From Acidovorax sp. 1608163 (GTDB taxonomy: Bacteria > Pseudomonadota > Gammaproteobacteria > Burkholderiales > Burkholderiaceae_C), in contig NZ_CP033069.1 of the NCBI RefSeq assembly GCF_003669015.1, forward strand, positions 4,226,501 to 4,290,500: a DNA stretch of 64,000 nucleotides, given 5' to 3'. A program made the translations under genes and the position numbers. Below the pieces are notes generated by a model. It saw only the letters and a program-made list of their open reading frames with translations, had not been told where the DNA came from and did not search any database. This document shows positions 4,081-59,630 of the stretch, one piece after another (position 1 is the first letter of the stretch; every line of letters starts with the position of its first letter).

Positions 4081-4096
4081 GCTGCAGTCTTTAAGC

Positions 4097-4143
4097 AAAA
4101 AGAGCTGCCAGCGCTTGATAGATAAGCGCTGGCAGCTCTTTTT
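4097..4143. terminator. Strong bidirectional terminator made from a dispersed palindrome (family P, copy A)
   Basis: Perfect 20-bp arms, 4097-4116 (AAAAAGAGCTGCCAGCGCTT) and 4124-4143, around a 7-base loop, with A-tract on one side and T-tract on the other. It lies between the convergent ends of kbp and the rhodanese gene, so it can stop both transcripts. The core AGCGCTT-N7-AAGCGCT is the same palindrome found at several other places in the window, including inside genes. Confidence 0.9.
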
Positions 4144-4217
4144 TTAGGAGCACCCATTTCATCCCTGGCCCGCGCCTGAATGAAAAGCCCCCGCAGAGGC
4201 GGTCTCAGGGTGAGCGC

Positions 4218-4637
4218 TCAGCCCTGCCGCCAGGGCAGGCCGTGAAAGCGCCAGCCGCCCTTGCGCCCGCGCTGGCCGTTGTCGTCGGGGTCGCCTTCAA
4301 AGCCTTCGAGGATGTTGTAGGCCGTGAGCCCCAGCTCGGTCGCTCGCTTGGCGGCGGCGATGGAGCGCACGCCGCTGCGGCACAGCAGCACCACGCTCTG
4401 GCCTTGGGGCACAGCGGCGCGCAGCTGGGCATCAAAGTCAGGGTTCATGGCCATCCCGGGCCATTGCTTCCACGGCACAGCGGCGGCGTTGGGCACGCGG
4501 CCCACCCATTCCAGCTCGGCGCTGCTGCGCACGTCCACCAGCACGGCGGTGCCGTCTTGCACCCACTGCCAGGCTTGCTGGGGGGTGATGTCACCGGCGT
4601 AGCCTGCGGCCGGAGCGATGGCTTGGGGGGAGATCAT
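4218..4637 (-). CDS. Single-domain rhodanese-like sulfurtransferase
   Basis: 139-residue cytoplasmic rhodanese-fold protein. The active-site loop is CRSGVRS with Cys86, preceded by the CH2A-like VLVDVRSSAELEWVGRVPNA (33-52) and the substrate-side WKQWPG. Such proteins carry a persulfide and hand sulfur to acceptors; the acceptor is unknown here. It is the last gene of the leftward chain that begins with glyQ, 60 bases after the metallopeptidase gene. Single-domain size and an intact catalytic Cys suggest an active enzyme. Confidence 0.85.
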   Translation of the reverse strand: MISPQAIAPAAGYAGDITPQQAWQWVQDGTAVLVDVRSSAELEWVGRVPNAAAVPWKQWPGMAMNPDFDAQLRAAVPQGQSVVLLCRSGVRSIAAAKRATELGLTAYNILEGFEGDPDDNGQRGRKGGWRFHGLPWRQG

Positions 4638-4697
4638 GGGCGGTTTCCTTGTGACTCTGGGAGGTTGGGCAGATGGGGCAGCGGGTGCCGGTCGTGG

Positions 4698-5777
4698 CTA
4701 ATCCAGCAGCGGCGCAGGCTCTTCGCGCAGATGGTTGCGCAATTCGGCGTAGTCAGGCACCACGGTGGCCACGGTGTTCCAAAAGCGGGGGCTGTGGTCC
4801 ATCACCTGCAGGTGGGCCAGTTCGTGGGCCACCACGTAGTCGATGACGGCCGGGCGGTAGTGCACCAGCCGCCAGTTCAGGCGGATCGAGCCATCGGCCT
4901 TGGCGCTGCCCCAGCGGGTTTCGGCGCTGGACAGGCGCAGGCTCGTCCACTGCACGCCCAGCAGCGGGGCAAAGTGGTCCAGCCGCTCGATGAAGTAGCG
5001 GCGCGCATCGCGCATCAGCCAGGCCAGCACGGCGTCGCGGATTTGGGCGGCGCTGGCGTCGGCGGGCAAGCCAACGAAGAGTTGTGCAGGGGTGCTTGTG
5101 GTCTGTGCGTCGGCAGCCTGGGCAGGCTCTGCAGCCACCAGCGCCCCGCCCCGCCCGCTGCGGCTTTGGGTCGGGTCCAACACCACTTGCAGGGGGTGGC
5201 CCATGTAGGGCAGCACCACGCCATCGGCCCAGCAAATGCGCCCGCCCTCCAGCCGCTGCTGGCGCTCGCGCGCCTGCACCAGCTTGGTCATCACCCAGGC
5301 GCTGCGCTCGCGCAGCACGCCATCCACGGCCGACAAGGCCACCCAGGTCGGGGCGCGCACGGCCAGGCCATCGGCTCCCACGGTGAAGCCAATGGTGCTG
5401 CGCCGCGAGCGGTGCAGCGAGTAAGCCACCAACGCATCGCCCAGCAGCACCTCGCGGTTGGCCTGGGGGTGGCGGAATTCGGTGGGGGGCAGCAAGGATG
5501 CGATGGGCGCAGGCGGAGCGCTGCGCAAAGGCTGCATTGCTATGACTTCAGGAGCTGTCAGCGCTTTATTAATGGGCGCTAGCGGCCTTTTTTGCTTCAA
5601 ACCCTGCGGCACCTGTGCCGCCCGCTGGCGCCCAGGCGGCGCGGGTGGGGTGCGGCCCCTCGGTGCCTTGGCCTGGTTGGGCGAGGGCACGGGCGCAGCC
5701 CCCGGGGCGGGCGCCACGCTGCGCTGCACGCCCTGCGGGTCAAACAGGTCCAGCGCCAGTTGCACCAGTCGCTCCAT
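4698..5777 (-). CDS. YgjP-like (DUF45) M48-type zinc metallopeptidase
   Basis: 359-residue protein with a C-terminal YgjP/DUF45 domain: HELAH at 318-322 and a third ligand H328 in DHSPRFW. ATG 5777 shares its A with the TGA of plsC (TGATG), so translation is probably coupled; a GTG sits one codon earlier. The first 110 residues are a Pro/Ala-rich extension lacking in shorter family members. Residues 60-80 of that extension are encoded by a dispersed palindromic element (copy B), giving the peptide PLAPINKAL, which has a near twin in Lnt (TLAPANKAL). Substrate unknown. Confidence 0.82.
   Translation of the reverse strand: MERLVQLALDLFDPQGVQRSVAPAPGAAPVPSPNQAKAPRGRTPPAPPGRQRAAQVPQGLKQKRPLAPINKALTAPEVIAMQPLRSAPPAPIASLLPPTEFRHPQANREVLLGDALVAYSLHRSRRSTIGFTVGADGLAVRAPTWVALSAVDGVLRERSAWVMTKLVQARERQQRLEGGRICWADGVVLPYMGHPLQVVLDPTQSRSGRGGALVAAEPAQAADAQTTSTPAQLFVGLPADASAAQIRDAVLAWLMRDARRYFIERLDHFAPLLGVQWTSLRLSSAETRWGSAKADGSIRLNWRLVHYRPAVIDYVVAHELAHLQVMDHSPRFWNTVATVVPDYAELRNHLREEPAPLLD
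5538..5600 (-). repeat. Family P palindromic element, copy B, in frame inside metallopeptidase gene
   Basis: Read on the minus strand it carries GGCCGCTAGCGCCC, a short loop, then AAAGCGCTGACAGCT, flanked by AAAAAA and a CATAGCAA tail. This is the same palindrome as the terminator at 4097-4143, with decayed arms. It lies inside an uninterrupted reading frame and encodes residues 60-80 of the protein, in a linker region before the catalytic domain. Confidence 0.75.
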
Positions 5778-6589
5778 CACAGGCCGTCGCTGAGGTCGGT
5801 GGGCGCTGGCGGCTGCGCCGCTGCGTCTGGGGTGGATGCCAGCGCGGGGGCATCGCGGTAAGCCTCGGGGTCCAGGCGGCGCATTTCGGCTTCGATCCAG
5901 GCCTCCACCTCGCGCATCAGCTCATCGGCCTGGCGGCCCGCCGTGGGGATGGGCTGGCCAATGGACACGTCCACCACGCCCGGGCGCTTGATGAAGGCCT
6001 TGCGCGGCCACACCTTGGCCGAGGTCACGGCGACCGGGATCACTGGCGCGCCCGCATCGATGGCCAGGCGCGTGCCGCCGTTTTTGTACTGACCCTTCTC
6101 GCCCCGCTCCACCCGCGTGCCTTCAGGGAACATGATGACCCAGGTGCCTTTGGCTAGCAGCGCCTTGCCCTGCTGCACCACTTTGTGAAAAGCCCGGGCG
6201 CGGGCGCTGCGGTCGATGTGGATCATGTCCAGCCGCCCAATGGACCAGCCGAAGAACGGCACGTACAGCAGCTCTTTCTTGAACACGTAGGCCAGCGGGC
6301 GCGGCATGATGGCGGGCATCAAAAACGTCTCATAGGTGGACTGGTGCTTGACCAGCAGCACCGCACCGCCCTGCGCATCCTTGGGCAAATGCTCCGCACC
6401 AGTGATGCGGTAGTGAATGCCCAGCAGCGGGCGTGCGCTGTTCACGCTCAGCGCCAACCAGGCGCGCGCAATGCGGTAAACCGGCGCACCGCGCAGGCCC
6501 AGCAGCGACGCCAGCAAAATGGCGAGCGTGTAGGGCACCACGGTGATGGCCATCCACAGCATGTGGATGATGGATCGGATCAACGCCAT
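5777..6589 (-). CDS. plsC: 1-acyl-sn-glycerol-3-phosphate acyltransferase
   Basis: Makes phosphatidic acid from lysophosphatidic acid at the inner membrane. 270 residues with a hydrophobic N-terminal segment (about 8-32). The acyltransferase boxes are visible: HQSTYE (82-87, an H-x4-E variant of the usual H-x4-D), the GWSIGRLDMIHIDR block (115-127) and FPEGTR (154-159). The C-terminal 30 residues are a Pro/Ala-rich tail. It is the fifth gene of the glyQ chain, 66 bases after gmhB, and overlaps the start of the metallopeptidase gene by one base. Confidence 0.9.
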   Translation of the reverse strand: MALIRSIIHMLWMAITVVPYTLAILLASLLGLRGAPVYRIARAWLALSVNSARPLLGIHYRITGAEHLPKDAQGGAVLLVKHQSTYETFLMPAIMPRPLAYVFKKELLYVPFFGWSIGRLDMIHIDRSARARAFHKVVQQGKALLAKGTWVIMFPEGTRVERGEKGQYKNGGTRLAIDAGAPVIPVAVTSAKVWPRKAFIKRPGVVDVSIGQPIPTAGRQADELMREVEAWIEAEMRRLDPEAYRDAPALASTPDAAAQPPAPTDLSDGL

Positions 6590-6600
6590 AGTTATGAGTC

Positions 6601-6658
6601 TTTCAGGCCGCTAGCGCTTGATAAATAAGCGCTGGCAGCTATTGTTTTTATAGTATCA
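6601..6658. repeat. Family P palindromic element, copy C (intergenic)
   Basis: GCCGCTAGCGCTT (6607-6619) pairs with AAGCGCTGGCAGC (6627-6639) around a 7-base loop, followed by TATTGTTTTTATAG. It almost fills the 66-bp gap between gmhB and plsC. On the minus strand, the direction of transcription, no T-tract follows, so it is not an obvious terminator for gmhB. Confidence 0.8.
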
Positions 6659-7270
6659 AGCCGCCACGCCAGGCACTGCAGGGGGCGTCGAGGGTGGCGC
6701 AGGTGGGGGCGATGCCTGAACCGTGGCAGGCAGCAATTGCTCCACCCACTGCGCCAGGCTGGCATGCACCTGCGTGCCTTGCGGCCACACAGCGGGCAAG
6801 GGCTGCCCGGGCACCAGCGCGGCGGCGTGCCCGGTGCACACCACATGCAGCTGCGCGCCCAGGGCGGCCCCGGCCTGCAGGTGCGCCAAGCAATTGCCCA
6901 CCACCAGCACATCGTGCGACTCCACGCCATAGCGGTCGCAAATCTGCTCCAGCAGGCCCGGTGCGGGCTTGCGGCAAGTGCACTCTTCGTCGGCCGCATG
7001 GGGGCAGTAGAAGACTGCGTCAATGCGCCCGCCCACAGCGGCCACCTGGCGGTGCAGCTTGGCGTGGATGGCATTGAGCGCCACCACGTCCAGCAACCCC
7101 CGCCCCAGCCCAGGCTGGTTGGTGGCCACCACCACATGCCAGCCTGCATGGTTCAGCCGGGCAATGGCCTCCAGCGCGCCAGGCACGGGCACCCAGTCGT
7201 CTGCCGAGGTGATGTAGTCATCGCCCAAGGCATTGAGCAGGCCGTCACGGTCCAGGATGGCGAGTTTCAT
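6656..7270 (-). CDS. gmhB: D-glycero-D-manno-heptose-1,7-bisphosphate 7-phosphatase (HAD family), altered motif IV
   Basis: Removes the 7-phosphate of heptose bisphosphate in ADP-heptose synthesis for LPS. 204 residues. HAD motif I is LDRDG with D7 and D9; motif II is VVVATNQPG (46-54); the family's zinc loop is complete (C89, H91, C97, C99) and followed by RKP. Motif IV, normally GDs-x-x-D, reads GNCLAH (125-130): the Mg-binding Asp is Asn126. The C-terminus has a Pro-rich tail of about 25 residues. Located between glyS and plsC, the order I expect in this group. Function is likely, activity is uncertain. Confidence 0.85.
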   Translation of the reverse strand: MKLAILDRDGLLNALGDDYITSADDWVPVPGALEAIARLNHAGWHVVVATNQPGLGRGLLDVVALNAIHAKLHRQVAAVGGRIDAVFYCPHAADEECTCRKPAPGLLEQICDRYGVESHDVLVVGNCLAHLQAGAALGAQLHVVCTGHAAALVPGQPLPAVWPQGTQVHASLAQWVEQLLPATVQASPPPAPPSTPPAVPGVAA

Positions 7271-7344
7271 GGGTTGCTTCCGTTGAAGGGGGTCACCAGC
7301 ACCAGCCTACCAGAGGCGCCAAGCGCACATTCGCCCGCAGCGCC

Positions 7345-9498: not shown

Positions 9499-9506
9499 GG
9501 GATCAA

Positions 9507-9809
9507 TCAGCTCAAAGACGGCGTGACCGCGTTGTAGTGCAGCACGGTAGGAAAGGGGTCGTAGAAATGGTGCAGCAGCGTGCGCCATTCCTGGTATTGG
9601 AGAGAGCCACGAAAGCCCTCGGTGTGGTCTTGCAGCGTAGCCCAACGCACCAGCAGCACGTACTGGTGGTCATCTTCCACGCAGTGCTGCAGCTCATGCC
9701 CTTGGTACCCGGGCATGGACGCAATGATGCGCTGCGCCTGGGCAAAGGCCTGCTCAAACGCGGCCGTCTGGCCGGGCTTGATCTGCAGGGTGGCAATCTC
9801 CAGAACCAT
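9507..9809 (-). CDS. ABM-domain (antibiotic biosynthesis monooxygenase-like) small protein
   Basis: 100-residue single-domain protein with the dimeric alpha+beta-barrel ABM pattern: [19 protein letters not shown], then SMPGYQGHELQHCVEDDHQY and LLVRWATLQDHTEGFRGS. Relatives include heme-degrading and quinone-oxidising monooxygenases, but many members have no known reaction. The ATG shares one base with the stop of glyQ (TGATG) and the stop lies 8 bases before glyS, so it is translated from the same mRNA as both synthetase subunits. Why it sits there is unknown. Confidence 0.85.
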   Translation of the reverse strand: MVLEIATLQIKPGQTAAFEQAFAQAQRIIASMPGYQGHELQHCVEDDHQYVLLVRWATLQDHTEGFRGSLQYQEWRTLLHHFYDPFPTVLHYNAVTPSLS

Positions 9810-10723
9810 CAGGCGGCCTTCTTGGCCGTGGGTGCCATCTGCTCCACCCACTCGCGCGGCGCCATGGGGAAGCCCAGGCGTTCGCGGCTCTCGTAGTAGC
9901 TTTGCGCCACAGCGCGGGCCAGGTTGCGGATGCGGCCGATGTATGCAGCGCGCTCGGTCACGCTGATGGCGCCACGGGCGTCCAGCAGGTTGAAGCTGTG
10001 CGCGGCCTTGAGCACTTGCTCGTACGCGGGCAGCGCCAGCTGCTGCTCCATCAGGTACTTGGCCTGCTTTTCGTGCGCGTTGAAGGCGGTGAACAAAAAG
10101 TCGGCGTCGCTGTGCTCGAAGTTGTAGGTGGACTGCTCCACCTCGTTTTGCTTGTACACGTCGCCGTAACTCAGGGTGTCGGTCCACTTCAGGTTGTAGA
10201 CGTTGTCCACGCCCTGCAGGTACATGGCCAGGCGCTCCAGGCCGTAGGTGATTTCGCCAGTGGCAGGCTTGCAGTCGATGCCGCCCACTTGCTGGAAGTA
10301 GGTGAACTGCGTGACTTCCATGCCGTTGAGCCACACCTCCCAACCCAGGCCCCAGGCGCCCAGGGTGGGGTTCTCCCAGTCGTCTTCGACGAAGCGGATG
10401 TCGTTCTTCTTCAGGTCAAAGCCCAGAGCTTCGAGCGAGCCCAGGTACAGCTCCAGGATGTTGGCCGGTGCGGGCTTGAGCACCACCTGGTACTGGTAGT
10501 AGTGCTGCAGGCGGTTGGGGTTCTCGCCGTAGCGGCCGTCCTTGGGGCGGCGGCTGGGCTGCACGTAGGCGGCCTTCCACGGCTCGGGGCCAATGGCTCG
10601 CAGGAAGGTGGCGGTGTGCGAGGTGCCAGCGCCCACTTCCATGTCATAGGGTTGCAAAAGGGCGCAACCCTGCGCGTCCCAATAGGACTGCAGCTTCAGA
10701 ATGATTTGCTGGAAGGTCAACAT
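9809..10723 (-). CDS. glyQ: Glycine--tRNA ligase alpha subunit
   Basis: 304-residue catalytic subunit of the class II glycyl-tRNA synthetase. Conserved stretches are all present: [78 protein letters not shown] and [23 protein letters not shown] 10723 is followed at once by the family start [14 protein letters not shown]. It is the first gene of a seven-gene leftward chain ending in the rhodanese gene. Confidence 0.97.
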
Positions 10724-11146: not shown

Positions 11147-12343
<1,197 letters not shown>

Positions 12344-15539: not shown

Positions 15540-17210
15540 TCACTCCATACCAAACGGCAGGTGCCTGGAATACGCCCCAGGCGCCGGGCCGCGCCGACGT
15601 GCCACCCACGCCACACACACCACCAGCAGGCCCGCGCACCACAGGGGCCACAGCCCCCAGCGCGACGCCCACCATGCAAAGGGGGTGACGCCGCCATCGG
15701 CCGACACGCCCTGCCCACGTCCCTGTACCTCGGCGCGCAGCACCCCACGGGTGTGACGCTCCAGCTGGTGGGTGACCACGCCCCGGTGGTCAATGATGGC
15801 CGTGGCGCCGGTGTTGGTGGCGCGCACCATGGGGCGCTCCAGTTCCAGGGTGCGCATGCGGCTGATCTGCAGGTGCTGGTCAATGGCCAGCGTGTTGCCA
15901 AACCAGCCAATGTTGCTGAAGTTGACCATCACCGTGGGTGCCTGGGCTGGGTCGGCAAAGCGCGCGGCCAGCTCTTCGCCAAACAAGTCTTCGTAGCAAA
16001 TGTTGGGGGCAATGCGCTGCCCCACCCACTCGAATGACGCCTGGCCCACCGTGCCCCGGTTGAAATCCCCCAGGGGTATGTTGAGCATGGCCGTGAACCA
16101 CTTGAACAGCGGCGGAATGAATTCACCAAAGGGCACCAGGTGGTGCTTGCTGTAGGTGTAGACGGGCTCGGCCGCGCCGCCACTGGGCATGCCGGGCGTG
16201 CTGGACGGGCGCCAGCCCAGCACCGAGTTGGTGTAGCCCGCACGGGCATTGCCCAGGGGTATGCCCACCAAAGCGGCCTGCGCGCCCTCGGTGTACCGGG
16301 CCTGCAACCCTTCCAGATAGCCCGGAATCAGCTGCTGCGGCAGCAGCGGTATCGCCGTCTCAGGGGCCACGACCAGCGTGGCCGTCTCGCTGCGCAACTG
16401 CTGCGCGTACCACTGCAGCGCCAGCGGCACACCGCTGCCTTCCTCAAATTTTTCATCTTGCGGGATATTGCCCTGCAGCAGGGCCAGTGACAGCGGTGGG
16501 GCCGGGGCCCGCGACGGGGTGTAGCACAGCTCTACCGCACAGTGGCGCTGCAAGGCCGCCCAGCCGCCAACCGCCACCACAGCCAAGACGGCCACCCAGG
16601 TGGACCAACGGCGCAGATCCGACCCGCGGCACTGCACGCACGCCATGGCCAGCCCTGCGGACACCGCCCCCACCCCATACACCCCCACCCAGCGGGGCAG
16701 CGACGCCAGCGGCCCCTGCACATGGGCATAGCCCCCTGCGCCCCACGGAAAGCCCGTGAACCAGGTGCCACGCACCAGCTCCGCCAGCAGCCAAAGCGCT
16801 GCAAAAAGCATAGCTGCCAGCGCTTTATTGGCGGGCGCTAGCGTGCAAAAAGACCATAAAGCCGCCGCATAGTACAGCGCCAGGAACGCCGCCAAGGCCA
16901 GCACAGCGGCCACGGCCAGCGGCGCAGCCAGCCCGCCATAGGTGTGCAAGGAAATGAACAGCCACCAGAAGGTGCCGCACAACCAGGCCAGGGCAAACGA
17001 AAAACCCAGCCAGGCCCCCTGCCGCCCGCTGGGGCGCAGGTGGTGCAGCAACCCTGCCAACACCAGCATCGACAGCCACTGCAGCCACCACACAGGCTGG
17101 CCCGTGCCGGGCCAGGCGAGCGATGCTGCCTGGGCCAGACCGGCCAAGGCAGACAGCCCCGTGGCAGCCACCATCGCAGGGCGGCTGCGCGACATCAACG
17201 CCCGGGCCAT
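15540..17210 (-). CDS. lnt: Apolipoprotein N-acyltransferase
   Basis: Adds the third acyl chain to lipoproteins in the inner membrane. 556 residues, with N-terminal membrane helices, a periplasmic nitrilase domain and one C-terminal helix. The catalytic triad is Glu284 (VAPETAIPLL), Lys355 (YSKHHLVPFGEFIP) and Cys405 (NICYEDLFGEE). ATG 17210 shares a base with the corC stop (TGATG). Residues 118-137, in the transmembrane region, are encoded by a family P palindromic element (copy D), giving TLAPANKALAAM. The enzyme should still be functional. Confidence 0.95.
   Translation of the reverse strand: MARALMSRSRPAMVAATGLSALAGLAQAASLAWPGTGQPVWWLQWLSMLVLAGLLHHLRPSGRQGAWLGFSFALAWLCGTFWWLFISLHTYGGLAAPLAVAAVLALAAFLALYYAAALWSFCTLAPANKALAAMLFAALWLLAELVRGTWFTGFPWGAGGYAHVQGPLASLPRWVGVYGVGAVSAGLAMACVQCRGSDLRRWSTWVAVLAVVAVGGWAALQRHCAVELCYTPSRAPAPPLSLALLQGNIPQDEKFEEGSGVPLALQWYAQQLRSETATLVVAPETAIPLLPQQLIPGYLEGLQARYTEGAQAALVGIPLGNARAGYTNSVLGWRPSSTPGMPSGGAAEPVYTYSKHHLVPFGEFIPPLFKWFTAMLNIPLGDFNRGTVGQASFEWVGQRIAPNICYEDLFGEELAARFADPAQAPTVMVNFSNIGWFGNTLAIDQHLQISRMRTLELERPMVRATNTGATAIIDHRGVVTHQLERHTRGVLRAEVQGRGQGVSADGGVTPFAWWASRWGLWPLWCAGLLVVCVAWVARRRGPAPGAYSRHLPFGME
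16801..16857 (-). repeat. Family P palindromic element, copy D, in frame inside lnt
   Basis: On the minus strand: CACGCTAGCGCCC, six bases, AAAGCGCTGGCAGCTATG. It encodes residues 118-137 of Lnt, within a hydrophobic helix region. It aligns closely with copy B, in the same orientation and reading frame relative to its host gene. Confidence 0.75.
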
Positions 17211-18088
17211 CAATGTTCGGCAGCGCCAGGCGCTTCCACCCGCGACACCTTGAACCAGCGCACCGCGCCGCCCTTGGTGTGCAGCACCACAAAATGCAGC
17301 CCGCACAGCTGCAGGTGTTCGCCGCGCTTGGGCACGCGGCCCATTTCGTGGGCGATCAGGCCGCCAATGGTGTCAAACGCGTCCACGGGCTCGCTGCCCT
17401 GGATGTGAACGCCAAAGGCTTCAGACACCCGCTCGATGGGGGTGTCGCCGCTGACGCGGTAGGTCTTGTCGGCCAGGCCAAAGATGTCGCCCGAGTCTTC
17501 GGCAATGTCGAATTCATCCTCAATCTCGCCCACAATCTGTTCAAGCACATCTTCAATGGTGACCAGCCCGGCCACGCGACCAAACTCGTCGATCACGATG
17601 GCCAAGTGGTTGCGGTTGCCGCGAAACTCGCGCAGCAGGTCGTTCAGGCCCTTGCTCTCGGGCACAAACACGGCGGGCCGCAGCAAGGCGCGGATATTGA
17701 GTTCTGGCGCCCGCTGCAGCTTCAGCAGGTCTTTGGCCATGAGGATGCCAATGATGTTCTCCCGCCCACCCTGGAACACCGGAAAGCGCGAGTGGGCCGT
17801 GTCGATCACCGAGCGCAGCAGCACATCGGGCGGCTCATCGATATCGACCATGTCCATGCGGGGTGAGGCCACCATGACATCGCTGGCGGTCATGTCGGCC
17901 ATGCGAATCACTCGCTCAATCATCACACGCGAGTCGGCGCCGATGACCTGGTTGTCCTCGGCCTCCGCCAGGGTCTCGATGAGTTCTTCTGCAGAGTCGG
18001 GGCCGGGGTGTATGAACTCGGCCACCTTTTGCAGAAAAGTGCGCTTGTCTTCCTTTTCGGGCAAACGCCCAGGGTGCGGGTCAGACAC
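17210..18088 (-). CDS. corC: CorC/HlyC-type CBS-domain protein (YbeX), magnesium/cobalt efflux family
   Basis: About 292 residues. Two CBS domains lie in the middle (MTASDVMVASPRMDMVDIDE...; LLRPAVFVPESKGLNDLLRE...VIDEFGRVAGLVTIEDVLEQ), followed by the CorC_HlyC domain (EIEDEFDIAEDSGDIFGLAD). No membrane domain, as in YbeX/CorC. The gene is usually coupled to lnt, as here. Start: the frame opens with TTG at 18154, but GTG 18088 gives the family-like MSDPHPGRLPEKEDKRTFLQ, so I prefer it; both lack a strong ribosome site. The role in metal efflux or ribosome maturation is known for relatives only. Confidence 0.88.
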   Translation of the reverse strand: MSDPHPGRLPEKEDKRTFLQKVAEFIHPGPDSAEELIETLAEAEDNQVIGADSRVMIERVIRMADMTASDVMVASPRMDMVDIDEPPDVLLRSVIDTAHSRFPVFQGGRENIIGILMAKDLLKLQRAPELNIRALLRPAVFVPESKGLNDLLREFRGNRNHLAIVIDEFGRVAGLVTIEDVLEQIVGEIEDEFDIAEDSGDIFGLADKTYRVSGDTPIERVSEAFGVHIQGSEPVDAFDTIGGLIAHEMGRVPKRGEHLQLCGLHFVVLHTKGGAVRWFKVSRVEAPGAAEH

Positions 18089-30142: not shown

Positions 30143-31801
30143 ATGACGCCCCACACATCCGCCACGCCCCCTTCGCCGCTGCTGTCCATTGACGCCGTGG
30201 GCAAGGACTACACCGCCACCGTGCTCGACAACGTGACGCTGGCCCTGAACGCGGGCGAGGTGCTGGCCCTCACGGGCGAGAACGGCGCGGGCAAGAGCAC
30301 GCTGTCCAAGATCATCTGCGGGCTGGAATCGGCCACGCGGGGCGGCATGCGCCTGGGTGGGCAGACCTACACCCCCACCTCGCGCCGCGATGCCGAGCAG
30401 CACGGCGTGCGCATGGTGATGCAAGAGCTGGGGCTGATCCCCACCCTGTCGGTAGCCGAGAACCTGCTGATGGGCCGCCTTCCCCACCGAGCCGGCTGGC
30501 TGCGCCGCGATGCACTGCTCGCCGCAGCCAGCCAGCAGCTGGCCAAGATTGGCCTGACCCACATCGACCCGGCCACGCCCGTGTCGGCCCTGGGCATTGG
30601 CCAGCAGCAGATGGTGGAGATTGCGCGCAACCTGCACGACGACACGCGCATCCTGGTGCTGGACGAGCCCACCGCCATGCTCACCCCGCGTGAGACGAAT
30701 TACCTGTTTGACCAGATTGCCCACCTCACCGCACGCGGCGTGGCCATCATTTACGTGTCGCACCGCCTCGAAGAGCTGCGCCGCATTGCCGACCGCGCCG
30801 CCGTGCTGCGCGACGGCCGCCTGGTGGACGTGTTGCCCATGGCGGGCCTGACGGAAGACGCGCTGGTGCAGCGCATGGTCGGTCGCTCGGTCAACGACCT
30901 GGAAGACCGCCCCCGCCGCACCGCAGGCCCAGTGGTCATGGGCGTGCAAGGCATTGGCCGGGGCACTGCGGTGCAGGACGTGAGCCTGGAGCTGCGCGCG
31001 GGCGAAGTGTTCGGCATTGCCGGGCTGGTGGGCTCGGGCCGCACCGAGCTGCTGCGCCTGCTCTTTGGTGCGGACCGTGCCGACCGGGGCAACGTGACTC
31101 TGTACGAAAATTTTGATCAAAAAGTGCCTCCAGCGCCCGACCATCAAGCGCAAGCAGCTACCAATTCAATAGCAAACCCTAATTCCACTCCGTCCACCCC
31201 CCGCCCCCCCGTGCTGCGCACCCTGGCGCGGGGCTTTGCCACGCCGCTGCAGGCCATTGCCGCCGGGGTGGGCCTGGTGACGGAAGACCGCAAATCGCAA
31301 GGCCTGCTGCTCGCGCAGCCCATCCGCATCAACGCCACGCTGTCCGACCTGGGCGCCGTATCGCGCGGGGGCTGGTTGCAGCGCGGGCTGGAGAACCGGC
31401 TGGTGCAGGGCTTCATCCAGACCCTGCGCATCCGCTGCCGGGGCGGCGAGCAGCCCGTGGGCCAGCTCTCGGGCGGCAACCAGCAAAAGGTGGTGTTTGC
31501 CCGCTGGCTGCACCGCCCCTGCAAGGTGCTGCTGCTGGACGAGCCCACCCGTGGCGTGGACGTGGGCGCACGCGCCGAGATTTACAGCGAGCTGGACCGC
31601 ATGGCCGACCAAGGCCGCGCCCTGCTGATGGTGTCGTCCGACCTGCGCGAGCTGATGGCCATGGCCGACCGCATTGGCGTGATGAGCGGTGGCCGCATGG
31701 TGGCCGTGTTCGAGCGCGGCGAGTGGACGCAGCAATCGCTGCTGGCCGCCGCCTTCTCGGAGCAAAGCCATGCGCCCGCCGAGCAACCAGCGGCTGCATA
31801 G
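30143..31801 (+). CDS. rbsA: Ribose ABC transporter ATP-binding protein (dual ATPase)
   Basis: 552 residues, two ATPase halves. N-half: Walker A GENGAGKST, signature variant LGIGQQQM, Walker B ILVLDEPTAML. C-half: degenerate Walker A GLVGSGRTE, as usual for RbsA, with signature LSGGNQQK and Walker B LLLDEPTRGVD. Residues 322-345 are encoded by a family P palindromic element (copy E) and are followed by a Pro/Ser-rich stretch; compared with E. coli RbsA this inserts roughly 35-40 residues between VTL and the ATEDRK-like GLVTEDRKSQG. The frame is intact, so the loop is apparently tolerated. Confidence 0.93.
   Translation: MTPHTSATPPSPLLSIDAVGKDYTATVLDNVTLALNAGEVLALTGENGAGKSTLSKIICGLESATRGGMRLGGQTYTPTSRRDAEQHGVRMVMQELGLIPTLSVAENLLMGRLPHRAGWLRRDALLAAASQQLAKIGLTHIDPATPVSALGIGQQQMVEIARNLHDDTRILVLDEPTAMLTPRETNYLFDQIAHLTARGVAIIYVSHRLEELRRIADRAAVLRDGRLVDVLPMAGLTEDALVQRMVGRSVNDLEDRPRRTAGPVVMGVQGIGRGTAVQDVSLELRAGEVFGIAGLVGSGRTELLRLLFGADRADRGNVTLYENFDQKVPPAPDHQAQAATNSIANPNSTPSTPRPPVLRTLARGFATPLQAIAAGVGLVTEDRKSQGLLLAQPIRINATLSDLGAVSRGGWLQRGLENRLVQGFIQTLRIRCRGGEQPVGQLSGGNQQKVVFARWLHRPCKVLLLDEPTRGVDVGARAEIYSELDRMADQGRALLMVSSDLRELMAMADRIGVMSGGRMVAVFERGEWTQQSLLAAAFSEQSHAPAEQPAAA
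31106..31177 (+). repeat. Family P palindromic element, copy E, in frame inside rbsA
   Basis: The plus strand reads AAAATTTTGATCAAAAAGTG, then CCTCCAGCGCCC, a short loop, CAAGCGCAAGCAGCTA and a CAATTCAATAGCAA tail. AT-rich ends in a GC-rich gene make it conspicuous. It encodes residues 322-345 of RbsA (ENFDQKVPPAPDHQA...). Confidence 0.8.
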
Positions 31802-37361: not shown

Positions 37362-37380
37362 AGCACCCTCTTTTGAATGA

Positions 37381-37441
37381 AATAGGCCGCTAGCGCTTAC
37401 CTATCAAGCGCTAGCAGCTTCTTTTTTGATAGCGGCCCCTG
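37381..37441. repeat. Family P palindromic element, copy F (intergenic)
   Basis: GCTAGCGCTT (37389-37398), seven bases, AAGCGCTAGC (37406-37415): a perfect 10-bp stem, then AGCTTCTTTTTTGATAG. It lies between slt and the DUF4124 gene. The T-run is on the plus strand, against the direction of the genes, so a terminator role for slt is unclear. Confidence 0.85.
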
Positions 37442-41693: not shown

Positions 41694-42998
41694 ATGCCCA
41701 TGCAAATCTACATGGTAGGCGGCGCCGTCCGCGACAAGCTGCTGGGCCGCCCGGTGAATGACCACGACTGGGTGGTGGTGGGGGCCACGCCCGAGCAGAT
41801 GCTGGAGCTGGGCTACCTGCCGGTGGGGCGGGATTTTCCGGTGTTTCTGCACCCCCAAACGCGCGAGGAATACGCCCTGGCACGGACCGAGCGCAAGAGC
41901 GGGCGCGGCTACCGGGGCTTTGTGGTGCAAAGCTCGCCCGACGTGACGCTGGCCGAAGACCTGTCACGGCGCGACCTTACTATCAATTCAATAGCTGCCA
42001 GCGCTTATTCATCAAGCGCTAGCGAGCTATTTGATCCATACCACGGCGTGCAAGACCTGCAGGCCAAGGTGCTGCGCCACGTGACCGATGCCTTTCGCGA
42101 AGACCCGGTGCGCATCCTGCGTGTGGCGCGCTTTGCGGCGCGCTACCACGACTTCACCGTGGCGCCTGAGACCCTGCAGCTGATGCGCGAGATGGTGGCC
42201 GAGGGCGAGGTGGACCACCTGGTGCCCGAGCGCGTGTGGCAAGAGCTGGCGCGCGGGCTGATGGAAGACAAGCCCTCGCGCATGTTCGAGGTGCTGCGCG
42301 CATGCGGCGCACTGCAGGTGCTGCTGCCCGAAGTGGCCTGCCTGTGGGGCGTGCCCCAGCCCCCGCTGCACCACCCCGAGGTGGACACGGGCGTGCACCT
42401 GATGATGGTGCTGGACATGGCCGCACGGCTGCAGGCCCCGCTCACGGTGCGGTTTGCCTGCCTGGCGCACGACCTGGGCAAAGGCACCACGCCCGCCGAC
42501 ATCCTGCCGCGCCACATTGGGCACGAAGAGCGCAGTGCCGAGCTGCTGCAAGGCGTGGCCGAGCGCCTGCGCGTGCCCGTGGACTGCCGCGAGACCGCCG
42601 AGGTGGTGGCGCGCGAACACGGCCACATCCACCGCAGCGGCGACCTGGGTGCCGGGCCGCTGGTGCGCCTGCTCGAGCGCTGCGACGCCATCCGCAAGCC
42701 CGGGCGTTTTGCCGAAGTGCTGCTGGCCTGCGAGTGCGATGCCCGGGGCCGCCTGGGCTTTGACGAAGCCGCCTACCCGCAGCGCCCGCGCCTGCTGGCC
42801 GTGCTGGCGGCCGTGCAAAGCGTCATTACCCGCGAGATTGCGGCCAAGGCGGCGGCCAAAGGCGTGACCGGCCCCCAGGTGGGCGATTTGATCCACCAGG
42901 CCCGGGTGGAAGCCGTAGCGCAGTGGCTGCGCGCCACACCAGCCCCGACCCCACCAACCCCGACATCAGAAGCCCCCGAAACACCTGCCCAGCCATGA
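41694..42998 (+). CDS. cca: CCA-adding tRNA nucleotidyltransferase with HD domain
   Basis: 434 residues, bacterial multifunctional type. The nucleotidyltransferase site is MVGGAVRDKLLGRPVNDHDW with the two Asp ligands; SRRDLTINSIA, EDPVRILRVARFAARY and the HD phosphohydrolase motif (HPEVDTGVHLMMVLDMAARL; LAHDLGKGTTP) are present. Residues 96-114 come from a family P element (copy G): where E. coli has TINALAQDDNGEIIDPY this protein has TINSIAASAYSSSASELFDP, three or four residues longer. Two ATGs, 41694 and 41700, are possible starts. Confidence 0.94.
   Translation: MPMQIYMVGGAVRDKLLGRPVNDHDWVVVGATPEQMLELGYLPVGRDFPVFLHPQTREEYALARTERKSGRGYRGFVVQSSPDVTLAEDLSRRDLTINSIAASAYSSSASELFDPYHGVQDLQAKVLRHVTDAFREDPVRILRVARFAARYHDFTVAPETLQLMREMVAEGEVDHLVPERVWQELARGLMEDKPSRMFEVLRACGALQVLLPEVACLWGVPQPPLHHPEVDTGVHLMMVLDMAARLQAPLTVRFACLAHDLGKGTTPADILPRHIGHEERSAELLQGVAERLRVPVDCRETAEVVAREHGHIHRSGDLGAGPLVRLLERCDAIRKPGRFAEVLLACECDARGRLGFDEAAYPQRPRLLAVLAAVQSVITREIAAKAAAKGVTGPQVGDLIHQARVEAVAQWLRATPAPTPPTPTSEAPETPAQP
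41979..42036 (+). repeat. Family P palindromic element, copy G, in frame inside cca
   Basis: ACTATCAATTCAATAGCTGC, then CAGCGCTTATTCATCAAGCG and CTAGCGAGCTATTTGATC. The AT-rich ends and the CAGCGCTT-N6-AAGCGCTAG core match copies A, C and F closely. It replaces a variable loop of the enzyme and keeps frame. Confidence 0.85.
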
Positions 42999-43447
42999 GC
43001 CTGCACATCCGCCCCGCCACGCTGGCCGACGCCCCGGCCATTGCACCGCTGTTTGACGCCTACCGCCAGTTTTACGAACAGCTCGCCGACCTGGCGGCCG
43101 CCCAGCGCTTCGTCCACGAGCGCCTGGAGCGCAACGAATCCGTCATCCTGATCGCGCAGGACGACGCGGGTGCCGCTGTGGGCTTTTGCCAGCTGTACCC
43201 CAGCTTTTGCTCGGTGGAGGCCGCGCCCATCTATGTGCTGTACGACCTGTTTGTGGCGCCTTCGGCCCGGGGCCAGGGCGCCGGGCGCTTCCTGCTGCTG
43301 GCCGCCGAAGACCATGCCCGCAGGCAAGGGCGTGTGCGCATGGACCTGACCACGGCGCACACCAACCACGCCGCGCAGGCGCTGTACGAGGCCATGGGCT
43401 GGGAGCTGGACACGGTGTTTCGGGCCTACACCCGCCGGGTGGGCTGA
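42995..43447 (+). CDS. GNAT-family N-acetyltransferase
   Basis: 150 residues. LHIRPATLADAPAIAPLFDA at the N-terminus, the acetyl-CoA loop VAPSARGQGAGRFLLLAAED, and TTAHTNHAAQALYEAMGWEL near the end are classical GNAT motifs. ATG overlaps the cca stop by four bases (ATGA), so translation is coupled. Substrate unknown. Confidence 0.9.
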   Translation: MSLHIRPATLADAPAIAPLFDAYRQFYEQLADLAAAQRFVHERLERNESVILIAQDDAGAAVGFCQLYPSFCSVEAAPIYVLYDLFVAPSARGQGAGRFLLLAAEDHARRQGRVRMDLTTAHTNHAAQALYEAMGWELDTVFRAYTRRVG

Positions 43448-51828: not shown

Positions 51829-51831
51829 GGA

Positions 51832-53893: not shown

Positions 53894-53963
53894 ACATCAA
53901 AACCTGGAAATCGGCGAACCGGTGGGGCGCCGTGGATGAACCAATGAAACGGGACTGACCTTT

Positions 53964-54023
53964 ACTGTACGGAGCGATCGCCATAACCAAAACGAATAAA
54001 TATTTGGTTGTTTAAAACCAAAT
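53964..54023 (-). promoter_or_regulatory. Probable promoter and operator of the tauD-ABC operon
   Basis: A perfect palindrome ATTTGGTT-N6-AACCAAAT (54002-54023) and a further AACCAAAA (53986-53993) lie in an AT-rich block. On the minus strand TACAGT (53969-53964) can serve as -10 with a poor -35 (TTTTGG), which suggests an activator. A CysB/Cbl-type LysR protein is the likely binder, by analogy with other sulfonate operons. Confidence 0.5.
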
Positions 54024-54055
54024 CATCCGAGCGCCACGCCCGTGCCGCGCTGAAA

Positions 54056-54165
54056 GCGGCTCAAAAAACTCAGCGAAGCGGCCCTGGCTAGGCGTTCCGT
54101 CGCAGGCAGTACAAGCGGTACGACAAGACGGGACAACAACGCCAGGGGAGTTTTTTGAGATGCGC
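54056..54165. repeat. Long hairpin repeat (family H), copy 3
   Basis: Perfect 12-base arms CTCAAAAAACTC (54060-54071) and GAGTTTTTTGAG (54148-54159), with inner CCCTGGCTAGGCGTTCCGTC as in copy 2 (one base different). It begins right after the stop of the DUF3604 gene; the T-run in the stem could support termination in that direction. Confidence 0.8.
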
Positions 54166-56574: not shown

Positions 56575-56587
56575 TGCGCAGCCCTGC

Positions 56588-57562
56588 TCACTCGGCCCGG
56601 ATACCGGCGGACTTGACCAGGGTGGCGTACTTGCCCGATTCCTGGCTCACAAACGCTGTGAAGCGGCCTTGCGGGTAGCCGGTGGCCCGGATGCCTTGCG
56701 CGGCCAGGTCGCTGCGCACGCGGGGATCGGCCAGCACCTTGGCGACCTCGGCACCCAAGGCCTCCAGCACGCCGGGCGGGGTGGCGGCCGGGGCAAACAG
56801 GCCAAACCAGGTGCCTGCGCGCAGGCCAGGATAGGTCTCGGACAGGGTCGGCACATGGGGCAGCAACGGGTGGCGCGCCTCGCCACCGCTGGCCAGGGCC
56901 ACCAGGCGCCCGGCCTGCACATGGGCCAAAGCGGGGCCCACGGCAATGAACATCACATCCACCTGCCCCGCCACCACATCGGCCAGGCCCACCGGGCCGC
57001 CCCGGTACGGAATGTGGGTGACGTAGATGCCCGCCTGCTGCTTGAGCAGCTCTGCCGCAAAGTGCTGGGGGCTGCCGTTGCCAGCCGAGGCGTAGTTGTA
57101 TTGCCCCGGGCGGGTCTTGGCCGCGCGCACAAAGTCGGCCACCGTCTTGAAGCCGGTCTTGGGGTGGGCCACGAGCAGGAAGTCTGTCTCACCCAAGGAC
57201 ACCACCGGCACCAGATCACGGCGGGGGTCATAGGGCAGGCTGGCGGCCAGCGTGGGCAGGATCGTGATGGGGCCGTCGGCCCCGGCCAGCAGCGTGTAGC
57301 CATCGGGTGCTGCCTTGGCCACGGCGTCAGTGGCAATCACGCCGCCCGCCCCTGCGCGGTTGTCCACCACCACGGGCTGGCCCCACTGGTCGGCCAGGCG
57401 GGCACCCACGCGCCGCGCCACGATGTCGAGCGCGCTGCCGGGGGTGTTGTGCACCACCACGCGGACGGGCTTGTTCGGATAGCTTTCGGCGTGGGCCAAA
57501 GGCGCCAGGGCCGCACTGGCCAGCAGGCACAGCGAAAGAAAGGGGTGGAGCAAAACGCGCAT
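56588..57562 (-). CDS. Bug/TctC-type receptor protein
   Basis: 324 residues. Signal peptide (FLSLCLLASAALAPLAHAE) followed by SYPNKPVRVVVHNTPGSALD, GGVIATDAVAKAAPDGYTLL and YNYASAGNGSPQHFAAELLK, typical Bug motifs. Orphan receptor without TctAB. Co-transcribed with the DUF3604 gene, suggesting that it binds the substrate or product of that enzyme. ATG 57562 begins the signal peptide. Confidence 0.9.
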   Translation of the reverse strand: MRVLLHPFLSLCLLASAALAPLAHAESYPNKPVRVVVHNTPGSALDIVARRVGARLADQWGQPVVVDNRAGAGGVIATDAVAKAAPDGYTLLAGADGPITILPTLAASLPYDPRRDLVPVVSLGETDFLLVAHPKTGFKTVADFVRAAKTRPGQYNYASAGNGSPQHFAAELLKQQAGIYVTHIPYRGGPVGLADVVAGQVDVMFIAVGPALAHVQAGRLVALASGGEARHPLLPHVPTLSETYPGLRAGTWFGLFAPAATPPGVLEALGAEVAKVLADPRVRSDLAAQGIRATGYPQGRFTAFVSQESGKYATLVKSAGIRAE

Positions 57563-57715
57563 GGCAACACCGAGGAGAGCACCCCGGCCGTGAGAGCAAG
57601 AAGCCCTCAAGGCTAGGCACCACCCGATGGCCCGGCAACGAAGCTTCTCGCAGAACCTTATGCGCTGGGCAGATATGAACGGCGCCCCAGTCCAGCGCCC
57701 CAGCGGGCGCTTTGC

Positions 57716-58834
57716 CTACAATCGGTGTGACCGATCCCCGTGCACAAACCCCACGGGCTCCCATGCGTCGCCCGCGCCCAGGGCGAGCACCTTGAACAGC
57801 TCGCCCATCTCATGTTCCATGATCAATTTGGCCGCTGTGGCACGTTCCGCTTGCGCAAGCAGCTCCATTTTTGATAGCAATCCGCAGTTGATGAGGAAGT
57901 GCGCCTGCGTGGTGTAGCCCAGCACGTGCAGCCCTGCCTCTTGTGCGGCCAGCGCCATGGCGGTGAAGTTGACGTGGGCGGTGATGTCCTTGCGGCCCAC
58001 TTCCACCAGCGGGTCGCCGTCGGCCAGATGGCCCTGGTGGCACATCACCGTGCCCATGTGGCGCTGGGGGTGGTAGTACTCGTCTTCGCCAAAGCCGTAG
58101 TCCAGCAAGAACGCGGCGCCGCGCGTGAGCCGATCGGCCAGCATGCGGATGAAGCCTTCGCCCTGGGCGTGGATTTCGGTCAGGTAGTCTTGCGGACCTT
58201 CGATGGCTATGGGCGGGCGCAGGTCGGTGGGGCGGTCGGCCCAGGCGAAGCGGCCGTCCTCGGCCACCGCCACGCCGCGCTCGTGCCACACCCCACTTTG
58301 CTGACCGCCGTGTCGCGCCAGCAGTTGCACGGGCATGGCGTCCAGCACTTCGTTGCCCACCACCACGCCGCTGAATTGGTCGGGCAAGGCATCCACCCAG
58401 CGCAGCTTGTGGGCATGCGCCACCAGCTTGGCCTGCTGGCGCGCGCGCAGGCTGCCTGACAGATCGACGATGGTGTAGCGCTGCACCTGGTCGCCCAGCG
58501 CATCCAGCAACTGCAGCGCCAGGGCGCCAGAGCCTGCGCCAAACTCCCAGACTTCGTCGGTGCCGGTTTGCGCGAGGGCCTCGCCCACCTGCATGGCCAG
58601 CGTCTGGCCGAACAGGGGCGTGAGCTCAGGGGCGGTCACAAAGTCGCTGCCCGACTCGGGCATGGCGCCGAATTTGGTGGAATCGTTGGCGTAGTAGCCC
58701 AGGCCGGGCGTGTACAAGGCGAGCTGCATGAAGCGGTCAAAACCCAGCCACCCACCCTCGGCGGCAATGGCCTGGGTGATGTGCTGGTGCAGGGCGGTCG
58801 TTAAACTGTCGGGTCTTTGGGTCACGGCCCGCAT
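57716..58834 (-). CDS. MidA/NDUFAF7-family SAM-dependent methyltransferase
   Basis: 372 residues. Family motifs: GWLGFDRFMQLALYTPGLGY, FVTAPELTPLFGQTLAMQVG, the SAM-binding WEFGAGSGALALQLLD, and VVVGNEVLDAMPVQLL. The eukaryotic relative methylates an arginine in complex I; bacterial members are less understood. Start: ATG 58834; an ATG at 58846 would overlap the divergent gene. A fragment of the family P repeat (copy I) may encode part of the C-terminus (LLSKMELLAQAER). Confidence 0.85.
   Translation of the reverse strand: MRAVTQRPDSLTTALHQHITQAIAAEGGWLGFDRFMQLALYTPGLGYYANDSTKFGAMPESGSDFVTAPELTPLFGQTLAMQVGEALAQTGTDEVWEFGAGSGALALQLLDALGDQVQRYTIVDLSGSLRARQQAKLVAHAHKLRWVDALPDQFSGVVVGNEVLDAMPVQLLARHGGQQSGVWHERGVAVAEDGRFAWADRPTDLRPPIAIEGPQDYLTEIHAQGEGFIRMLADRLTRGAAFLLDYGFGEDEYYHPQRHMGTVMCHQGHLADGDPLVEVGRKDITAHVNFTAMALAAQEAGLHVLGYTTQAHFLINCGLLSKMELLAQAERATAAKLIMEHEMGELFKVLALGAGDAWEPVGFVHGDRSHRL
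57848..57881 (-). repeat. Possible truncated family P element, copy I
   Basis: On the minus strand ATTGCTATCAAAAATGGAGC, then TGCTTGCGCAAGC. It matches one end of the copies in rbsA and the FolM-like gene (GCTAT...AGCTGCTTGCGC) but lacks the second arm. In frame within the MidA gene. Weak call. Confidence 0.4.
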
Positions 58835-58844
58835 TGTCCACCAC

Positions 58845-59630
58845 ATGTCCCCCACCTCCCGTCCACGCACCGTTCTGGTCACCGGCGCTGCCAAGCGTCT
58901 GGGCCGCAGCATTGCCCTGGCGCTGGCGGCGGGCGGCTGGCAGGTGGCGGTGCACTACCGCACCTCGGCGCAGGACGCTATCGATACCGTAGCTGCTTGC
59001 GCTGATTTGACGGGCGCCAGCGCCCATTTTGATGCAAATTTTGAAGACGAGGCTGCCGTGCGCGGCCTGGTGCCCCGGGTGATCGCCCACTTTGGCCAAC
59101 TGGACGCCGTGGTCAACAGCGCATCGCTGTTCGAGCACGACACCGTCCACACCCTGGGCTTTGCCACGCTGGAAAAGCACCTGCGCAGCAACACCGCCAC
59201 GCCCGTGCTGCTGGCCCAGGCCCTGCACCAGCATGTGGCCGACCGCGCCGCGGCAGGAGACGCCGACGCGCAAGGCGCCGTGGTCAACCTGCTGGACCAA
59301 AAGCTGTGGAACCAGAACCCCGACTTCATGAGCTACACGCTCTCGAAAGCGGCGCTGGAGGCGGCGGGCACCATGCTGGCGATGGCGCTGGCCCCGCGCG
59401 TGCGCGTGGTGGGCGTGGCCCCGGGCCTCACGCTGACCAGCCACATGCTCAGCGACGATAAGTTTGCCCAGTTGCATGCCTTGAGCCCGCTGGGCCGCTC
59501 GTCCACCCCCGAAGACGTCGCCGCCACGGTGAAGTTTGCGCTGGAGAACCGCTCCATCACCGGCACCACGCTGCTGGTGGACGGTGGCCAGCACCTGATG
59601 AAATTTGAACGCGACTTCTCCCTGATGTGA
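58845..59630 (+). CDS. SDR-family FolM/pteridine-reductase-like enzyme
   Basis: 261 residues. N-terminal dinucleotide motif VLVTGAAKRLGRSIALALAA with the Arg-Leu-Gly of pteridine reductases, active-site YTLSKAALE (YxxxK) and the NSASLFEHDTV loop typical of FolM/PTR1-like enzymes, which reduce dihydropterins with NADPH. It is next to folB, consistent with a pterin role. Residues 45-66 are encoded by a family P element (copy H). The start is only 10 bases from the divergent methyltransferase start. Confidence 0.88.
   Translation: MSPTSRPRTVLVTGAAKRLGRSIALALAAGGWQVAVHYRTSAQDAIDTVAACADLTGASAHFDANFEDEAAVRGLVPRVIAHFGQLDAVVNSASLFEHDTVHTLGFATLEKHLRSNTATPVLLAQALHQHVADRAAAGDADAQGAVVNLLDQKLWNQNPDFMSYTLSKAALEAAGTMLAMALAPRVRVVGVAPGLTLTSHMLSDDKFAQLHALSPLGRSSTPEDVAATVKFALENRSITGTTLLVDGGQHLMKFERDFSLM
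58977..59044 (+). repeat. Family P palindromic element, copy H, in frame inside the FolM-like gene
   Basis: GCTATCGATACCGTAGCTGC, TTGCGCTGATTTGACGGGCG and CCAGCGCCCATTTTGATGCA, AATTTTGA. Both ends and the two arms match the rbsA copy read in reverse. It encodes residues 45-66 between the second strand and the helix that follows in the Rossmann fold. Confidence 0.75.

Follow-up and report, generated by a model that had tools for sequence, protein, structure and literature searches.

A dispersed palindrome-bearing DNA motif held at fixed places in Acidovorax, within and between genes, as a candidate recognition site

Known DUS and USS are about 10-34 bp long, and we know of none with a signal as long as that of the element described here. 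As far as the consulted part of the source goes, DUS in Neisseriaceae and USS in Pasteurellaceae are numerous, conserved in place, split into dialects and also present in genes (PMC2397512). HIP1 of cyanobacteria, a highly iterated palindrome, is described in the corresponding part of its source as 8 bp long and low in some relatives (PMC4390886). BRE of Bordetella and other Betaproteobacteria, according to the section consulted, measure 75-91 bp in Bordetella, have a mean GC content of 69%, often stand in tandem and number at most 29 copies (PMC3110155). For Acidovorax ebreus TPSY, the relevant part of a 2017 source lists GCTTAT(N)5AAGCG as a statistical motif pair with 114 copies, of which five are in genes and the intergenic ones fall into 44 convergent, 59 co-oriented and 4 divergent; for Polaromonas naphthalenivorans CJ2 it gives ATAGCT(N)22CAAAAG with 125 copies, 18 of them in genes (PMC5217627).

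The window analysed here is a stretch of 64,000 nucleotides from the chromosome of Acidovorax sp. 1608163, for which the original prediction proposed a nine-copy palindromic family invading coding sequences in frame. The family is real: a 67-column weight matrix (PWM, threshold of at least 12 bits), run on 403.5 kb around the window, recovers all nine copies at the predicted places and 52 copies altogether, compared with none in the reversed sequence. Asymmetric and AT-rich (mean GC of copies 42%), the element spans about 67 bp and combines a left box (GCTAT-N7-ATAGCTGC) with the palindrome AGCGCTT-N7-AAGCGCT and an end of GGCCAATTT. The AT-rich ends and both orientations noted originally are real, although the element itself is not symmetric; what was taken for a "possible fragment" at 57848-57881 proves to be a copy's left half. 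Gene and intergenic placement was derived with our own simple gene caller, which puts three of the nine copies between genes and six inside genes (Table 1). Both lnt and cca, confirmed as hosts by NCBIfam and Pfam, are probably essential. In a sequence search of Cca against solved structures, the loop behind the conserved motif was aligned and no mechanism was gained.

Table 1. Copies of the element in the window and the genes that host them
Feature	Coordinates	Strand	PWM score	Remarks
Copy	4088..4154	-	74.9	Intergenic, convergent gap, 7 bp behind stop codon
Copy	5536..5602	+	66.2	Antisense in YgjP-like metallopeptidase gene, ahead of the Pfam domain; +24 aa vs A. soli
Copy	6591..6657	-	80.6	Intergenic; same gene junction bears a copy in another genus
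Copy	16795..16861	+	41.6	In lnt, antisense; zero length change vs A. soli
Copy	31110..31176	-	71.3	In sugar ABC transporter ATPase-like gene, antisense; +27 aa vs A. soli
Copy	37370..37436	-	77.1	Intergenic
Copy	41976..42042	+	79.7	In cca, sense, covering the conserved TIN(S/A)IA codons plus the loop that follows
Copy, left half only	57815..57881	-	29.1	In SAM-dependent methyltransferase gene, sense
Copy	58974..59040	+	52.3	In short-chain dehydrogenase gene, sense; -1 aa vs A. soli
YgjP-like metallopeptidase gene	4698..5777	-		PF01863
lnt	15540..17174	-		TIGR00546 above cut-off, scanned as 15540-17306
ABC transporter ATP-binding protein gene, sugar type	30143..31801	+		PF00005; top NCBIfam matches, all below cut-off, are to sugar transporter models
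cca	41694..42998	+		NF008137 above cut-off
Putative SAM-dependent methyltransferase gene	57716..58834	-		PF02636, scanned as 57716-58912
SDR family oxidoreductase gene	58845..59630	+		NF006597 above cut-off, scanned as 58710-59630

Allowing up to two mismatches, the core matches seven times in the window (0.39 expected), six of them within the copies listed originally, and none of 100 shuffled windows reached seven matches; the seventh match, at 43104, is absent from the matrix copies. In the whole genome the core has 550 matches versus 9 for the reversed pattern, and from 157 copies in a sampled 1.16 Mb we estimate about 680 copies per genome. An Rfam scan of the window returned no match at the gathering threshold. 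The TPSY motif is the core of this element, and all 24 of its occurrences in the 403.5 kb lie within matrix copies; the part of the 2017 source consulted describes the strict core only, in one genome, and makes no mention of a left box, of fixed positions, of constraint or of loss (PMC5217627). The CJ2 motif given there shares ATAGCT with the left box (PMC5217627) and is probably another dialect; in full it has no match in the 403.5 kb. Like HIP1, as described in the part cited above, the element is highly iterated and scarce in some relatives, but it is 67 rather than 8 bp long. With BRE it shares a betaproteobacterial distribution and some in-gene copies, yet at 42% versus 69% GC the two are set apart, by the description consulted and not by sequence (PMC3110155). 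The likeness to DUS and USS is that the motif is numerous, fixed in place, found in genes and more conserved than its flanks.

The sites are static, without turnover among the relatives compared. The genome under study (G000) shares all 47 placeable copies with its closest relative, G452 (none unique, five unplaced), and 43 of 44 with the more distant G454 (one unique, eight unplaced); in the reverse directions no unique copy was found, and neither relative showed a clean empty site. Even in another genus, 8 of the 11 sites examinable in an 80-kb stretch carry a copy. The family is dispersed, palindromic and in frame within genes, as predicted, and present in hundreds of copies, but invasion is not borne out, there being no turnover between relatives. 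Rickettsia palindromic elements, which are net insertions, resemble this one in being palindromic repeats translated in frame within genes; here, however, sites do not differ between relatives and several are not net insertions. Relative to Acidovorax soli, the length difference at ten in-gene sites is zero at four and -1, +2, +4, +10, +24 and +27 aa at the others, so that the suggested Rickettsia-type insertion fails at the four, and some of the other sites did lengthen their genes, by +10 to +27 aa. In our trees, some of whose rich and poor labels rest on the palindrome only, A. soli falls inside the motif-bearing clade, and erosion can therefore explain the zero length change. The same placement weakens overwriting by single-step patch replacement (the SPDIR model), which that zero change had suggested, lnt and the methyltransferase gene excepted. 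At these two, where most motif-free genomes are of equal length, overwriting or gradual accretion of point mutations may have been at work. The methyltransferase site has equal length in 30 of 31 genomes; for lnt this holds for most aligned loci, the orthologues form a graded series, and scores above 0 occur at no more than 4 of 74 loci. Genomes with more of the element in cca (G015, G121, G117, G128 and G146) also have a longer cca gene. Intergenic length differences from A. soli were +82, +38, +51, +89, +98, -50, +92 and -97, compared with a median of 45 in the controls (IQR -6.5 to 80.5, n=42).

In-gene copies are conserved as DNA beyond the needs of the protein. Between G000 and G454, AT-ending codons of unchanged residues are kept in 98 of 119 cases in the left half, compared with 6378 of 14003 elsewhere (p=3e-16; the baseline is an average over genes), and in 44 of 76 in the right half; for G452 the corresponding values are 129/139 and 97/109 versus 10505/15932. 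A first test on all codons was weaker (G454 left half, 114/143 versus 1351/2009, p=0.0016; G452 left half, p=0.09) and gave no excess for the right half in G454 (77/120). Intergenic copies of G000 and G454 have an identity of 0.86 in columns 15-31, which falls to 0.31-0.45 immediately outside and to 0.24-0.36 at greater distance, with the same orientation in 22 of 23. Motif-free G421 encodes similar residues with GC-rich codons, which, together with the maintenance at the DNA level, argues against mere protein constraint. The original prediction held that the same segments at the same places in distant families, with conserved protein sequence, would point to such constraint; this is partly so, the segments having been found at equivalent positions in other genera, but it is their DNA and not only the protein that is kept. 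At lnt, part of the match pre-exists, for in several genera the protein as such is similar to the translated element. For the entire family, chance or protein constraint is nevertheless refuted by 52 copies versus none in the reversed sequence, near-random flanks and synonymous constraint, and we give it virtually no credence.

The motif is overrepresented both within and between genes. Of the 52 copies in the 403.5 kb, 21 have their midpoints inside genes and 18 lie wholly inside, nine in sense (five in phase 0, four in phase 2) and nine in antisense, all in one phase. Intergenic copies occupy 10 convergent, 20 codirectional and 1 divergent gaps, and 20 of these 31 are at most 20 bp from a gene 3' end, i.e. 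behind the stop codon. Such an arrangement is what transcription terminators or stabilisers of mRNA 3' ends would show; however, with over a third of the copies wholly in genes, the strongest constraint on the left half and a core stem almost devoid of compensatory pairing, this function is very improbable. Over 136 copies, each of the seven core pairs has 0-2 compensated cells of 136 and the left box pairs have 0-3; the pair just outside the core (columns 23/45) has 11 (p=0.06), and there is a weak pairing excess at columns 16/52 and 21/47 (p=0.01 and 0.02). The near-zero compensation in the core argues for a DNA motif rather than a hairpin, and a hairpin or RNA element was rejected on this ground.

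Each site carries 73 bits of information, whereas 13.9 would locate about 680 sites, which suggests descent by copying and not recognition alone. This excess, the copies at gene 3' ends, as in REPs, and the longer cca genes would fit a mobile palindromic element of REP, MITE or RPE type that is now dead, having spread in a single ancestral episode and then frozen, with gene conversion keeping its copies alike. REP/REPIN sequences with their RAYT are likewise palindrome-bearing and number in the hundreds, with many copies located at the 3' ends of genes, but the present element is not extragenic only, shows no link to a Y1 transposase and hardly any compensatory pairing. For the Y1 family, RAYT was rejected as a driver for want of correlation with the motif: a Y1 gene occurs in 33 of 36 genomes, but not in G141 or G095, which bear the motif. 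Of the two Y1 genes in this genome, neither is closely flanked by copies (one has none in 3.3 kb, the other a single copy more than 1 kb away). As relatives offer no clean empty site, and inert remains would not be expected to vanish genome-wide with codons recoded, we regard a dead element as rather improbable.

Spacing is more even than random (CV 0.72 versus 0.97 +/- 0.13; 1.1% of 2000 simulations). With one consensus query, the motif was found in 2 of 72,556 plasmid records and 0 of 50,697 phage records, the share of Comamonadaceae among these not being established. The even spacing, the occurrence of both orientations throughout the chromosome sampled, the scarcity in plasmids and the DNA-level constraint are all compatible with chromosome organisation, in which a nucleoid or segregation protein would bind the motif every several kb and hold or mark the chromosome. 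However, no strand or ori-ter pattern stood out clearly when 20-kb samples were inspected by eye, which speaks against a use like that of KOPS or matS, and there is no candidate protein; we consider this role unlikely, if still worth keeping in mind.

Absence of the motif is nearly all-or-none. Among 47 Acidovorax genomes, six have 0-5 hits, one has 21 and 40 have 61-549. The best sense-strand score in cca is above 0 in all 41 motif-bearing genomes (at least 12 bits in 37) and below 0 in all six without the motif. Across the family, 46 of 150 genomes are rich in the left box, and 27 of these have at most nine palindromes. G071 has 6 palindromes but 369 left-box matches, so "motif-poor" judged by the palindrome alone is misleading. 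G117 has 17 palindromes and a cca copy yet only 6 left boxes, which weighs against the idea that the left box is the invariant part. No clear pattern links ComEC to the motif as a partner: it is present in motif-free A. soli just as in motif-rich genomes, and among motif-poor genomes it was not found in G424 and G016 but is present in A. soli, G018 and G122.

Taken together, the copies are probably old, vertically inherited, chromosome-wide DNA recognition sites and not an active mobile element. Counted against this explanation are the excess of information over that needed for location, the lengthening of some genes (+10 to +27 aa), the weaker outcome of the test on all codons, the few lnt loci with scores above 0 and the failure to find a partner. 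The version we tentatively favour, by analogy with DUS and USS, is a site of self-recognition for DNA uptake or recombination. The left half (GCTAT-N7-ATAGCTGCTAGCGCTT) would most likely be the working part, which a putative sequence-specific protein would recognise in double-stranded form, and the sites would be maintained by selection or by recombination favouring DNA that carries them. If the system were lost, codons would drift back to being GC-rich and the whole set would vanish; for the motif-free genomes we infer such a loss rather than a history without the motif. It is tempting to speculate, with slightly more reserve still, that Comamonadaceae possess a self-recognition system with a two-part signal, in which the left box occurs in about one-third of the sampled family genomes, lineage-specific palindromes are dialects, and sites long fixed even over conserved cca codons have disappeared as a set within Acidovorax, on two occasions according to the best tree.

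That a motif this long is fixed over genera, within probably essential genes and at the cost of AT-rich codons suggests a reader. The absence in 6 of 47 Acidovorax genomes amounts to a natural gene-finding experiment, in which the missing partner should vanish alongside the motif. More generally, in-frame repeats need not be insertions, as similar length and protein can mask constraint at the DNA level. If true, the uptake or recombination reading would make this the first DUS-like system known to us for Comamonadaceae.

The element is asymmetric, as seen in an alignment of 88 copies, and its consensus, derived from 136 copies, is ATTGCTATTAAATTGATAGCTGCTAGCGCTTATTTAATAAGCGCTAGAGGCCAATTTGACTTAAAAT. 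In these 136 copies the left 31 columns hold 42.5 bits of information, the loop 4.4 and the right part 26.2. Element copies average 42% GC versus 66% for the window (see table). A scan of 1,163,500 bases gave 157 copies at ≥15 bits, which corresponds to about 680 per genome; the 403.5 kb around the window contain 52 copies at ≥12 bits and the reversed control none. Along the chromosome the copies are spaced more evenly than random.

Placement of the window in the source genome (G000)
Feature	Coordinates	Remark
The window	G000:C1:4226501-4290500	on 5.05-Mb chromosome

The original prediction was that of a repeat family invading coding sequences, and this was borne out only in part: the sites are static. 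Counting a copy as shared if the matching stretch, taken with 400 bp on either side, contains a copy above 10 bits, we found 47 shared, 0 unique and 5 unplaced copies between the source genome and its closest relative, G452 (48, 0 and 2 in the reverse direction), and 43 shared, 1 unique and 8 unplaced copies relative to the more distant G454 (reverse 46, 0 and 4). Even in 80 kb of G010, a member of another genus, a copy of ≥12 bits is present at 8 of the 11 examinable sites; of the others, one, in a gene, has 8 bits and two have no copy. The G010 match in the gene at 4698 (YgjP-like metallopeptidase) is less certain, because its relative place within the gene differs.

The expected length gain of orthologues having the insert over those without it was only partly observed. 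A. soli has no element copy in 260 kb, and relative to it the ten in-gene sites differ by 0, 0, 0, 0, -1, +2, +4, +10, +24 and +27 residues, so that some sites show gains of +10, +24 and +27 and the length is unchanged at four of the ten. For cca, we compared 30 family genomes picked from 150. The site scores 20 to 80 bits in all 18 genomes with at least 17 palindromes (the source genome included), 23 bits in G146 (13 palindromes), -77 in G016 (14 palindromes) and -3 to -76 in the 11 genomes with at most 7. The compared stretch is 38 residues long in 14 of the 19 genomes with the element and 41-54 in the remaining ones (G015, G121, G117, G128 and G146). Eight of the 12 element-free genomes have 34-35 residues there, but G018 has 39, G016 has 41 and both G071 and G122 have 46, so the element cannot be recognized with certainty from length alone. 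The methyltransferase site has one length in 30 of 31 genomes, while its scores span -67 to 47. In lnt, the score exceeds 0 at only 4 of 74 scored loci, one of them from Rhodoferax and at the same place. Among named lnt loci those nearest to the source genome's are from Acidovorax, which points to Acidovorax, as GTDB defines it, as the probable genus.

Within genes, the element, and its left half in particular, is maintained as DNA. When all codons of agreeing residues are considered between G000 and G454, the left half kept 114/143 versus 1351/2009 in the flanks (p=0.0016), and the right half 77/120; between G000 and G452 the left-half excess has p=0.09. Of the AT-ending G000 codons, G454 keeps 98/119 left-half ones (p=3e-16), 44/76 right-half ones (p=0.04) and 6378/14003 in the background; the corresponding figures for G452 are 129/139, 97/109 and 10505/15932. 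GC-ending codons, split in the same way, show no excess survival in the element. In A. soli, AT-ending codons survive in 1/29 and 2/27 cases in the element halves (background 872/3934), and GC-ending codons are also fewer (8/18 and 12/25 versus 17363/22519). For intergenic copies, an ungapped G000-G454 comparison gave identities of 0.86 in columns 15-31 and 0.49 in the loop; the values are 0.31-0.45 over the five flanking bases and 0.24-0.36 farther away.

Using our own simple gene caller (350 genes), we found 31 intergenic copies: 10 in convergent, 20 in codirectional and one in divergent gaps, with 31, 146 and 37 such gaps of ≥50 bp available. Divergent gaps are short of copies (p=0.02 when the copies, not the gaps, are the units counted), and in 20 of the 31 cases a gene 3' end lies within 20 bp. 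The midpoint is in a gene for 21 copies, and 18 are wholly within one: nine sense (five in phase 0, four in phase 2) and nine antisense, the latter all in one single phase. The right half scores below 0 in 5/18 in-gene versus 1/31 intergenic copies and the left half in none of either, a bias that the matrix search may itself favour.

Across the family, the left box (GCTATN7ATAGCTG, one mismatch, strands summed, so that some sites are counted twice) has ≥40 matches in 46 of 150 genomes, the highest reversed control being 32. By eye from the tables, 19 of these 46 have ≥13 palindromes and 27 have ≤9. In these 27 of the 150 genomes (G035, G064, G031, G019, G009, G071 and others) the left box is strongly overrepresented and AGCGCTT palindromes are few or absent; G035 has 761 left boxes and one palindrome. 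Opposite exceptions are G117 (17 palindromes, 6 left boxes) and G016 (14 and 8). Named loci with other middles include those of Rhodoferax and uncultured relatives. Outside the family, the palindrome has at most 8 matches (274 class genomes). In a tree of cca plus methyltransferase for chosen genomes, palindrome-rich ones fall into one 29-row clade (SH-aLRT 99), which also includes the palindrome-low G018, G071, G122, G450 and G424.

Within the genus, 47 genomes were searched for the 16-base piece ATAGCTGCTAGCGCTT with two mismatches allowed. Forty of them have 61-549 matches, one has 21 and six have 0-5, against 0-3 for the reversed control. All 41 genomes with ≥21 matches have a positive best score on the cca sense strand, ≥12 bits in 37 of them and 1 to 11 in four; in the remaining six genomes it is negative (-4 to -51). 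On a cca tree built by a quick method with element columns removed, two changes suffice, one in G449 and G421 and one in the A. soli group of four. Both groups are well supported and the inner branches separating them are weak; consequently, there may have been two separate losses, and the tree also allows a single one. The G421 cca gene (L356) retains element-like residues in GC-rich codons and is a protein fossil of the lost DNA motif. As to genome size, four of the six motif-free Acidovorax genomes are large (6.8-7.5 Mb), and motif-bearing ones mostly have 4-6 Mb.

The existence of the strict core is not novel, as it is listed among potential novel motifs, for A. ebreus, in PMC5217627. Our search of the open literature turned up no account of the complete element, nor any mention of the left box belonging to it, of fixed places, in-gene constraint, loss or dialects. 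VeiPR1 of Verminephrobacter, described in PMC3975124, may be related.

Relatives agree best in the left half, which is also what partial copies retain most fully, and compensatory change is almost absent where the core arms vary. We therefore read the left half as a putative protein site in double-stranded DNA. In the search for a partner, Y1 transposases do not track the motif, and ComEC does not clearly follow it. ComEC (PF03772) was not found in the motif-poor G424 and G016 and is split over three matches in G003; the motif-rich G015 has 20 Y1 transposase matches, several equal in score, representing an expanded IS200-type element. One consensus query each returned few plasmid and no phage records with the element; the plasmids are NZ_CP049911.1 (242 kb) and NZ_AP029020.1 (365 kb) only. 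The information per site, 73 bits versus 13.9 needed, suggests that the sites were once spread by copying. The main rival to uptake-type recognition is a nucleoid role. Uptake-type recognition would account for the sites within genes and at 3' ends, for the dialects and for the loss of the whole set.
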